From Hymenobacter yonginensis (GTDB lineage Bacteria; Bacteroidota; Bacteroidia; Cytophagales; Hymenobacteraceae): a DNA stretch of 64,000 nucleotides. Each line of letters starts with the position of its first letter. The stretch's first letter is position 1. The stretch covers positions 2,480,001-2,544,000 of the forward strand of contig NZ_CP115396.1 of assembly GCF_027625995.1 (NCBI RefSeq). Reading direction: 5' to 3'. The position numbers were made by a program, and so were the translations under genes. Shown one piece after another: positions 1,779 to 27,900 of the stretch. The notes beneath the pieces were generated by a model that saw only the letters and a list, made by a program, of their open reading frames with translations, was not told where the DNA came from and ran no database searches.

Positions 1779-2114
1779 ACGTCATGCTGAGCGGAGGCGC
1801 AGCCGCAGCCGAAGCATCTCGCGTGCTGACGTTGCAATGATTGCGCCTCACCCCCCGGCCCCCTCTCCTTCAGAGAGGGGGAGCCAGACGACTGGTTAGG
1901 CGGTGTAGAGACGCGACACTTCGCGTCTCGGCGCGTGCTGATGTTGTTTTGGCTGGTGCGGGAACCGGTCGTTCAACGACGAGACGCGAAGTGTCGCGTC
2001 TCTACAATCGACCAGTCTGTCTGGCTCCCCCTCTCTGAAGGAGAGGGGGCCGGGGGGTGAGGCAATCGACCAACGAAGCGGTGGAGATGCTTCGGCAAGC
2101 TCAGCATGACCGTT
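1779..2114. repeat. Triple-nested palindromic repeat (family A enclosing B enclosing C)
   Basis: This 393-base gap between two minus-strand genes is almost wholly three concentric inverted repeats. Outer arms (A) are near 1779-1832 and 2082-2114, built on GTCATGCTGAGC and GAGATGCTTCGGC. Middle arms (B) are 1846-1890 and 2013-2062, built on CCCCCTCTCC and GAGAGGGGG. Inner arms (C) are 1902-1931 and 1977-2006, built on GTAGAGACGCG and CGCGTCTCTAC. All three families recur singly elsewhere in the window. No ORF is credible here. Confidence 0.9.
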
Positions 2115-11250: not shown

Positions 11251-11268
11251 GCCAAGCTAGAGCTTGGC
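11251..11268. repeat. Short perfect hairpin GCCAAGCT-AG-AGCTTGGC before menD
   Basis: Eight-base arms with a 2-base loop end 10 bases before the menD ATG. A TTG in the right arm (11264) is in frame with menD but is unlikely to be the real start. Confidence 0.6.
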
Positions 11269-11278
11269 GCTACCGCCT

Positions 11279-13186
11279 ATGCAAGCCGTCCATAACATCC
11301 CCGAAATCTGCGCGCAGTTGGGCATCACCGATGTGGTGCTTTCGCCGGGCAGCCGGTGCGCGCCGCTCACCATTGCTTTTGCGCGCCATCCGGGCATTGC
11401 GGTGCGCACCGTGCCCGACGAACGGGCGGCGGCCTTTATTGCGCTGGGGCTGGCCCAGGCGCAGCGGCGGGCGGTGGCGCTGGTGTGCACCTCCGGCACG
11501 GCTGGCCTCAACTACGCGCCCGCCGTGGCGGAGGCCTACTTCCAGCAGATTCCGCTGGTGCTGTTCACGGCCGACCGGCCGCCGGAATGGATTGATCAGC
11601 TCGACGGCCAGACCATCCGGCAAACCGACCTGTACGGAGCCCACGCCAAAGGCTCGTTCACGTTTCCAGCCGACACCACGCACGCCGATGCGCAGTGGCA
11701 CGCCACGCGCATCGTGAGCGAGGCCATCGGGCTGGCGCAGCAGTTTCCGGCCGGACCGGTGCAGGTGAACGTGCCGCTGCGCGAGCCATTCTACCCCAAG
11801 CAGGGCGAGGAGCTGCAGTTTGGCCCGGTGAAGGTGACGCGCGAGCTGCCCGGCCGGCCGCAGCTGCCCGCCGCCGTACTGCAGGAGCTGCACGAGGCCA
11901 TCCGCGGCACCAGCCGCGTGCTGGTGGTAGCCGGCCAGCACCCCGCCGACACCGAGCTGCTGCTGGCCCTGCAGCAGTTTGCCGCCACCCACCACGTGCC
12001 CGTCGTCGGCGACCTGATTGCCAACCTGCACCTACCCGCTGCCGCCACCTACGACCAGCGCCTGCGCCCCTTGGGCCGCCAGGATGTATTCATGGCCGTG
12101 CCGGAGCCGGGCCTCAAGGAAGCCCTGAAGCCGGAGCTGCTCATCACCTTCGGCCAGTCCTTGATTTCCAAAGCCCTCAAGCTCTACCTGCGCAACGCCA
12201 AACCCGCCCAGCACTGGCACATCCAGCCCGCCGGCCCTGTAGCCGACACGTTCCAGTCGCTGACCAAAGTGGTACGCATGGAGCCGGTTGATTTCTTCAC
12301 GGCGCTGGCCGCCGCCCCAAATCCACTCTCCAAAAGAGAGGAGTTGAACGGTTCGGTTGCGCTAGCGTCAGGCACCCCCTCTCTTTTGGAGAGGGGGCCG
12401 TGGGGTGAGGTCCCCGCCCAGGACGCCACCCGCGTAGCCCCGCGCCCGCAGCAGCTGGGCGAGCCGGTGCGCCTGAGCTGGCCCACGCCGGACGCCGATC
12501 CGGCCAAAGCCGCCTACCTCAAGCCCTGGCTGGCCGCCGAAAGCTGGGCGACCAGCTTTCTGCAGGACTTCATGCAGCAGCCCAGCCAGCCGTTCAACGA
12601 ATTCACGGCCATCTACCGCGCCCTGCAGCACCTCCCCGACCGCACGGCACTGCACCTGGCCAACAGCATGGCCGTGCGCTACGCCAACATCCTGGGCGTG
12701 CCGGCCGGCCGCACGGTGGAAATCTTCGCCAACCGCGGCACCAGCGGCATCGACGGGTGCACCAGCACGGCCGTGGGCGCGGCCCTGGCCCAACCCGGCC
12801 GCCCGGTAGTGCTGCTCACCGGCGACGTGGCTTTCTTCTATGACCGCAACGCCTTCTGGCACAACTACCCTACGCCCAACCTGCGCGTGGTGCTGCTCAA
12901 CAACCACGCGGGCGGCATTTTCCGGCTCATCGACGGGCCCCGCCAGCAGCCCGAGCTGGAGGAGTTCTTCGAGACGCGGCAGCCGCTGCGCGCCGAGAAT
13001 ACGGCCCGGGATTTTGGGCTGCACTACCAGGCCGTTTCCACTTTTGCTGAACTAGAGTCGGCGCTACCGGTTTTCTTTGCAGCCGAAACCGGCGCGGCGC
13101 TGCTGGAAATCACCACCAACAGCGCCACCAACGCCGAATTCTTTGAACACTACCGGGCCCTGGTCCGCACTTCTTTTTCACACTAG
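11279..13186 (+). CDS. menD: SEPHCHC synthase (2-succinyl-5-enolpyruvyl-6-hydroxy-3-cyclohexene-1-carboxylate synthase)
   Basis: The product is 635 aa from the ATG at 11279; an in-frame TTG at 11264 would add 5 residues. The N-terminal PYR domain shows VLSPGSRCAPLTIAF and CTSGTAGLNYAPAVAEA. The C-terminal ThDP domain shows NRGTSGIDGCTSTAVGAAL and TGDVAFFYDRNAFW with NNHAGGIFRLIDG. It joins isochorismate and 2-oxoglutarate using thiamine diphosphate. Odd feature: residues about 347-379 are encoded by an in-frame family B palindromic repeat inserted in the linker before the C-terminal domain. The enzyme's length is otherwise normal, suggesting the insert is tolerated. Confidence 0.93.
   Translation: MQAVHNIPEICAQLGITDVVLSPGSRCAPLTIAFARHPGIAVRTVPDERAAAFIALGLAQAQRRAVALVCTSGTAGLNYAPAVAEAYFQQIPLVLFTADRPPEWIDQLDGQTIRQTDLYGAHAKGSFTFPADTTHADAQWHATRIVSEAIGLAQQFPAGPVQVNVPLREPFYPKQGEELQFGPVKVTRELPGRPQLPAAVLQELHEAIRGTSRVLVVAGQHPADTELLLALQQFAATHHVPVVGDLIANLHLPAAATYDQRLRPLGRQDVFMAVPEPGLKEALKPELLITFGQSLISKALKLYLRNAKPAQHWHIQPAGPVADTFQSLTKVVRMEPVDFFTALAAAPNPLSKREELNGSVALASGTPSLLERGPWGEVPAQDATRVAPRPQQLGEPVRLSWPTPDADPAKAAYLKPWLAAESWATSFLQDFMQQPSQPFNEFTAIYRALQHLPDRTALHLANSMAVRYANILGVPAGRTVEIFANRGTSGIDGCTSTAVGAALAQPGRPVVLLTGDVAFFYDRNAFWHNYPTPNLRVVLLNNHAGGIFRLIDGPRQQPELEEFFETRQPLRAENTARDFGLHYQAVSTFAELESALPVFFAAETGAALLEITTNSATNAEFFEHYRALVRTSFSH
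12317..12415 (+). repeat. Family B palindromic repeat inserted in frame within menD
   Basis: Arms contain CTCTCCAAAAGAGAG (about 12326-12340) and CTCTCTTTTGGAGAG (about 12379-12393), with the family's outer CCCCA and GGGGTGAGGT flanks. The same family is intergenic at 1846-2062 and 27782-27900. The 99-base segment adds 33 codons with no stop. Confidence 0.88.
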
Positions 13187-27781: not shown

Positions 27782-27900
27782 ACCTCACCCCAACCCCTCT
27801 CCAAAAGAGAGGGGCTCTAGTTTTAGCATCTAGAGGATAAAGACTAGAGACTAAGACTAGTCCCCCCTCTCATTTGGAGAGGGGGCTAGGGGGTGAGGTC
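27782..27900. repeat. Family B palindromic repeat
   Basis: Arms ACCTCACCCCAACCCCTCTC and GAGAGGGGGCTAGGGGGTGA flank small inner hairpins (CTCTAG...CTAGAG). It touches the stop codon of the TonB-type receptor gene. Confidence 0.85.

Follow-up and report, generated by a model that had tools for sequence, protein, structure and literature searches.

A palindromic repeat read in frame in the interdomain linker of Hymenobacter MenD, a linker that holds tRNA and tmRNA gene ends in relatives

The DNA analysed here (the window) is a stretch of 64,000 nucleotides from Hymenobacter yonginensis (contig NZ_CP115396.1, positions 2,480,001 to 2,544,000). It carries on its forward strand, at 11279..13186, the coding sequence of MenD, an enzyme of vitamin K2, whose interdomain linker is the subject of this work. 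The frame scan placed the ATG at 11279 within a longer frame, open without a stop over 11264-13186 and beginning with a TTG at 11264. A profile search identified the product as MenD (TIGR00173, 385.7 bits for a cut-off of 244.2) and recovered its two ThDP domains (TPP_enzyme_N and TPP_enzyme_C). In the alignment with the solved MenD 2x7j, the matched part stopped at residue 333 and resumed at residue 416, and the gap between the aligned blocks was about 21 residues in 2x7j versus about 82 in the window protein; in two alignments, no residue of the solved MenDs was aligned between residue 334 and residues 407-416. Within this gap lies the linker, 201 nt at 12308..12508 (forward strand), extracted between the anchors FFTAL and AAYLKP. 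In an AlphaFold model computed with 28 relatives (pTM 0.83, most of the domains confident), pLDDT fell below 50 at residues 353-405 and was also low at residues 488-490 and 546-568. The linker thus looked disordered in the structure model that a preliminary description of this DNA, made from the sequence alone, had proposed as a check, and it is predicted to be a permissive, disordered segment that joins the middle domain to the C-terminal ThDP domain. An Rfam search of the window gave no match.

The first part of the linker is a palindromic element of 104 nt at 12308..12411 (forward strand), which is read in frame and encodes about 35 residues (344-378, counted from the ATG at 11279) with the peptide AAAPNPLSKREELNGSVALASGTPSLLERGPWGEV. 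The preliminary description had recognised a repeat of its family B within the menD frame, without a stop, at 12317..12415, and had assigned to it about 33 residues in the linker before the ThDP-binding domain; we recovered both features with slightly corrected bounds. These were set against the copy of the nearest genome (G001), which retains both ends (ACCTCACC...GGTGAGGT), and by this comparison the left end of the window copy has decayed. The two arms of the inverted repeat, at 12323..12346 and 12373..12396 (both forward strand), are 24 nt long and 88% complementary, and they contain the hairpin cores CTCTCCAAAAGAGAG at 12326-12340 and CTCTCTTTTGGAGAG at 12379-12393, respectively. The rest of the linker (12412..12508, forward strand; PAQDATRVAPRPQQLGEPVRLSWPTPDADPAK) includes a DATRVA stretch that recurs in many relatives. 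Inverted ends are present and no target-site duplication was recognised at the menD palindrome; no plasmid records resembling window positions 12200-12500 were found. The RNA of 12317-12415 folded better than its shuffled versions (z -2.96, 0/200 shuffles as good), and the hairpin that had been suggested within the menD mRNA is plausible as a fold.

The same family occurs elsewhere in the window. At one mismatch or less, CTCTCCNNNNGAGAG had 14 matches for 0.71 expected, and 12 of the 14 fell in three elements, the menD copy, a second copy of 217 nt at 1846..2062 (CCTCACC...GGTGAGG; core pattern and end comparison) and a third at 27782..27900 (core pattern), the latter two having no assigned strand. 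The stretch surrounding the third copy matched at about full length in G001, G003 and G119; this copy was rejected as a sign of mobility, there being no empty site. Across the genus, the half-site CCTCACCCCNNNNCCCCCTCTCC was detected in 104 of 120 genomes, with up to 73+71 matches, the reversed pattern used as a control giving one match in all of them together. We fetched 26 palindrome loci, four of them menD copies (that of G001 frame-broken) and 22 elsewhere, among which some matches span half an element only. At four of these 22, the frame stays open for 60 codons or more to either side. One of the four (L324) was judged spurious; of the other three, one has the palindrome translated as part of Pnkp (TIGR04075) in G096, another has it in frame within PBP1C (TIGR02073) in G010, and in the remaining one it connects PurQ to a DUF559 domain (loci L305, L320 and L326). 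The palindromes of Pnkp and PBP1C share with each other a recurrent peptide, xSPPxPLSxREGExD...LERGxGGE. The preliminary description, which gave the copies at 1846-2062 and 27782-27900 as intergenic, was therefore right about the existence of these copies and too narrow for the family, which is also found in frame in Pnkp and PBP1C.

The palindrome was present in the menD linker of 8 of the 119 genomes compared (the window, G001, G010, G096, G129, G138, G076 and G086), as several units in G129 and as one hairpin in G086. The arm pattern had flagged 11 linkers, from which G034, G097 and G123 were dropped, each having one fuzzy match in a linker of tRNA-Ser type. G001 carries the insertion too, and the comparison with a close relative, which might have revealed an empty site, did not do so; the palindrome in the menD of the window is probably old and inherited with G001. 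The menD of G001 (G001:C1:3433851-3435774, L175) is shifted by one base within the palindrome, seemingly in the right arm, which may reflect a pseudogene, a frameshift or a sequencing error. Using the G010 menD copy as a query against G001, G138 and G096, a comparison from which the window copy was left out, we obtained 96.9 bits for the menD copy of G001 (74.3 for the next other place) and 90.6 for that of G138 (next 59.9), and in G096 the Pnkp copy was best, with 96.9 versus 64.4 for menD. In G001 and G138, the G010 query thus scored higher with the menD palindrome than with the other copies, which suggests that the menD palindromes of the three genomes derive from one old insertion. In the MenD tree of 130 tips, no fewer than 7 changes are required to account for the eight palindrome tips, versus a mean of 7.8 with shuffled labels. 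The palindrome tips thus follow the tree about as shuffled labels do, so losses, interspecies exchange or repeated insertion must be involved. Of the proposal that a mobile repeat had landed at a tolerated site, the dispersed repeat, the tolerated linker and the added peptide stand; the event itself is not private to the window and is probably older.

The linker set comprised 118 genus genomes and the window (n=119), after leaving out G018 (contig break) and G127 (no match). Linker length ranged from 21 to 312 nt and was a multiple of three in 117 of the 119, the exceptions being G001 and G011, whose bounds are unreliable because the match is broken upstream. No integrated element and no ongoing insertion was seen at the menD linker of the 118 genus genomes, where a length of at most 312 nt is too short for such an element. 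Repeat-like DNA of the kind described above was absent from the linkers of 11 outgroups from the order (15-57 nt) and of 12 genomes that belong to other family genera (15-30 nt). As the sampled other genera have linkers of 15-57 nt without it, we rejected the reading of the segment as an ancestral part of MenD, and the outcome that the preliminary description had named as refuting, presence of the segment across distant genera, did not occur. Neither a palindrome nor a tRNA/tmRNA piece (see below) was recognised at a score threshold of 34 in 65 of the 119 linkers, nor in 32 of the 81 linkers of at least 120 nt.

Linkers of relatives contained DNA from the ends of tRNA and tmRNA genes. They were compared with a library of 67 tRNA sequences predicted with ARAGORN in G003, G034 and relatives, reduced to 65 by removing two doubtful "?" entries after the first scoring; four tmRNA ends were added after the null test, which therefore refers to the tRNA library only. 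With a score of at least 34, we recovered 69 pieces in 46 of the 119 linkers. The highest null scores were 33 in 595 shuffles and 31 in 476 other menD stretches, none of which reached 34, and a chance likeness of the linkers to tRNA was thus ruled out. Ten isoacceptors and tmRNA were represented among the strong pieces. The tRNA-Ser(tga) pieces of G006 and G021, which begin at the anticodon stem and run to the 3' end, match at 55/57 nt, and short pieces were identical to library sequences in G137 (Met 29/29 and Cys 22/22), G069 (Arg(cct) 25/25) and G102 (Phe 23/23); the final 27 nt of the Arg(tct) piece of G025 are identical to the genome's own gene. Several linkers are composite, such as that of G022, with Ser(gga), Lys and Met pieces in tandem, and that of G102, with Cys, Met, antisense tmRNA and Phe pieces. 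Pieces were also present in four of the eight genomes of a sister genus, g27 (G220 23/24, G221 18/18, G224 36/40, G225 33/43). A simple AACGAACAACGAA-type run, which may represent a further repeat family, is also present in the menD linkers of G220 and G221 (L240 and L241). No tRNA/tmRNA pieces were found in the 12 genomes of other family genera, and the 11 outgroup linkers scored at most 23 against the tRNA library. Pieces of different species are not independent, linkers of one type having non-tRNA tails in common in different species and the menD palindromes being perhaps one event. On the MenD tree, the antisense tmRNA type required 7 changes for 7 tips (mean of 6.9 with shuffled labels).

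The pieces have consistent ends and orientations. Among the 69 strong pieces, 62 are in sense orientation and 7 in antisense, all the latter being tmRNA, and 58 stop within 3 nt of the 3' end of the library RNA. The starts of the 61 tRNA pieces, counted without a null, fell at library positions 22-35 (19 pieces), 40-53 (22 pieces) and 3-11 (13 pieces, mostly Arg(ccg)). In G014, G095 and G109, the switch from an antisense tmRNA end to a sense Arg(tct) end occurs within the TTCGA of the T loop. Past position 74, some pieces keep the flank of the gene itself: G137 Cys (one base), G137 tmRNA (TGA), G022 Lys (TAA), G025 Arg(tct) (TG), G034 Ser(tga) (AAA) and G015 Ser(gga) (AAAA). The bases past 74 differ from the gene in G021 Ser(tga), G034 Ser(gga), G015 Ser(tga) and the tmRNA piece of G003. 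In both G003 and G007, the Met piece has CCCACCA where the G003 gene has CCCACCC, a sequence that is compatible with an added CCA. The exact sense T-loop motifs of the linkers were all in one frame (51/51), as were the antisense ones (5/5), counts to which no probability is attached because the kinds of piece found in the same frame are perhaps not independent of each other. In 29 of the 31 relevant tRNA genes, the last 26 nt are open in all three frames, so that the single frame is not explained by stops in the T arm; in longer tRNA pieces, the other frames are often closed.

The exact motif GGTTCGAWTCC was located at 106 sites in five genomes (G003, G034, G021, G022 and G137), of which 86 fell in tRNA genes, 5 in tmRNA, 6 in menD and 5 in tRNA-like arrays, with 3 more in degenerate or displaced tRNA-like DNA and one in a 402-aa frame (L238), which is probably a chance occurrence. 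Apart from L238, menD was the only recognised protein gene with the exact motif in these genomes. Regarding the degenerate or displaced sites, L235 has no 60-aa frame, L290 overlaps a mechanical 85-aa frame and L293 lies just before an ATG. The last two, L290 near 990 (G021:C1:3855182) and L293 near 990 (G022:C12:66692), are displaced 3' pieces outside the listed tRNA genes, the first belonging to tRNA-Met and the second to an Arg-like tRNA. Arrays of degenerate tRNA-like units were observed at L206 (G003:C1:1836178-1836398), L207 (G034:C1:921904-922434), L295 (G137:C1:2498515-2498993) and L292 (G022:C9:426989), and the array of G003 adjoins a gene matching RtcB RNA-ligase family models below their cut-offs. 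When one whole linker was searched with BLAST against five genomes, all matches with E ≤0.002 were in menD or in a tRNA-Ser gene. A second linker, searched against seven genomes, gave mostly menD and short matches, those identified being the tmRNA of G003 and G137 and tRNA genes of G003. No viral contigs encoding MenD were matched, and no phage records matched the G102 linker, the one linker searched.

The menD linker seems to gather structured DNA scraps that are read as protein. We propose, with a probability of roughly 0.7, that this permissive linker has been refilled repeatedly by palindrome or tRNA/tmRNA DNA. In Hymenobacter and one sister genus, it would have been lengthened and rebuilt by short hairpin-forming DNA that was later translated. 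The filling in the lineage of the window would be a copy of the dispersed palindromic element, which arrived in frame, presumably by an insertion of MITE or REP type, was inherited with G001 and has partly decayed. Other lineages would have received 3'-terminal DNA of tRNA genes, as well as that of the tmRNA gene in antisense orientation, most of the tRNA pieces coming from genes and not from mature RNA. Such gene DNA may have been moved by recombination centred on the T loop or the anticodon stem, in the manner of integrase attachment sites, and which pieces stayed would have depended on selection for an open frame. We favour DNA recombination at these cores because the attachment sites of integrative elements use the same places and displaced 3' fragments are their usual trace. 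The more specific idea that T-loop-registered recombination writes tRNA- and tmRNA-gene DNA into menD in Hymenobacter and its sister genus, the tRNA being domesticated as linker and the palindromes sharing the landing spot, is put forward tentatively, and the chances are somewhat against it.

The main rival to continuing insertion is an exchange of old alleles between species, which may also act together with DNA recombination. A few ancient linker alleles (palindrome, Arg(ccg), Met+tmRNA and Ser types) would each have arisen once and then been swapped by homologous recombination of menD, with losses. The palindrome and antisense tmRNA types following the MenD tree no better than chance, the non-tRNA tails common to same-type linkers and the best matches of the G010 palindrome, in the menD of G001 and G138, all agree with such a history, which we regard as quite possible while betting slightly the other way. 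However, nearly unmutated pieces (55/57 in G006 and G021, 29/29 and 22/22 in G137, 23/23 in G102) stand beside diverged ones, which implies that some are recent or refreshed, and tandem arrays of different isoacceptors require several events anyway. The linker could also accept any short open DNA without special attraction, tRNA ends and palindromes being simply the available short duplicated DNA; the displaced tRNA pieces outside recognised genes in G021 and G022 (L290 and L293) and the entry of the palindrome into other proteins would fit. We consider this somewhat unlikely, given that the exact T-loop motif is confined to menD among recognised protein genes of five genomes (with the probable chance case of L238) and that 51/51 motifs share one frame.

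An RNA origin of the pieces appears improbable. On this account, mature tRNA or tmRNA, or their 3' fragments, would have been captured at menD either by way of reverse transcription or as templates for repair. Anchoring at the 3' end with variable 5' truncation, which the pieces show, is the pattern of target-primed reverse transcription, and the CCCACCA of the G003 and G007 Met pieces is compatible with an added CCA. Against this, gene flank was retained past position 74 in the six pieces listed above, from G137 (two), G022, G025, G034 and G015, and the Ser(tga) and Lys pieces begin 5' of the anticodon loop. As for the palindrome itself, control of mRNA stability or of translation by its hairpin in the menD transcript might be the reason for its retention. 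The RNA fold does beat its shuffles, but such folding is expected of other palindromes of like shape, the left arm has decayed in the window and such a palindrome is missing from 111 of the 119 linkers, so that we hold this role to be very improbable.

If the proposed refilling is correct, these genomes would provide a natural series in which the linker of one enzyme was rebuilt from identifiable scraps, allowing the emergence of new protein sequence out of non-coding DNA to be traced stepwise. A mechanism is needed to account for the single frame and for the apparent preference for one gene, and it could be tested in environmental bacteria.

The menD palindrome is in itself a protein-coding palindrome in a tolerated linker, a known type of element, and a family of this kind is hereby added for Bacteroidota. 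In passages of two reviews (PMC10969869, PMC2229807; after Ogata et al.), the Rickettsia palindromic elements (RPE) and the protein-coding palindromes of Wolbachia are palindromic repeats of about 100-150 bp with many dispersed copies, inserted in frame in conserved enzymes and giving a recurrent peptide, as here. By analogy, the Hymenobacter family behaves as the protein-coding palindrome class of Rickettsia because it has many dispersed copies and is in frame in several unrelated conserved protein genes (MenD, Pnkp and PBP1C), and also between PurQ and DUF559. The likeness is claimed for behaviour and not for descent, the menD palindrome coming from another phylum. In addition, the same linker holds tRNA/tmRNA DNA in relatives, a feature absent from the RPE descriptions in those passages. 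The REPs of the GTAG and CGTC superfamilies, described in PMC3733652 as mostly intergenic with some copies within ORFs at presumably neutral positions, resemble the menD element as short palindromes that can lie within an ORF. In contrast to them, the menD element consists of two hairpins in one unit of about 104 nt, and no GTAG or CGTC tag was seen by eye at the palindrome ends in G001 and G010 (ACCTCACC/GGTGAGGT). Among the matches listed from the open-licence literature, as far as their available text goes, neither protein-coding palindromes of Hymenobacter nor tRNA/tmRNA ends in a protein linker were described, and the wider pattern, tRNA and tmRNA gene ends in one protein linker and in one frame, is new with respect to them. 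The closest parallel for these ends is found in integrative elements and the tDNA fragments that stay behind after them (Islander, PMC4383910; van der Gulik et al., PMC9897764); these elements use attachment subsites in the anticodon loop, the T loop or the T/acceptor junction (PMC4383910) and leave displaced 3' tDNA fragments as their usual trace (PMC9897764). The linker pieces are likewise 3' fragments of tRNA and tmRNA, many with 5' breakpoints that may correspond to such subsites, but unlike integrative-element tDNA they occur, without an island and often in tandem, within the reading frame of a protein gene, and they come from many isoacceptors with all their exact motifs in one frame.
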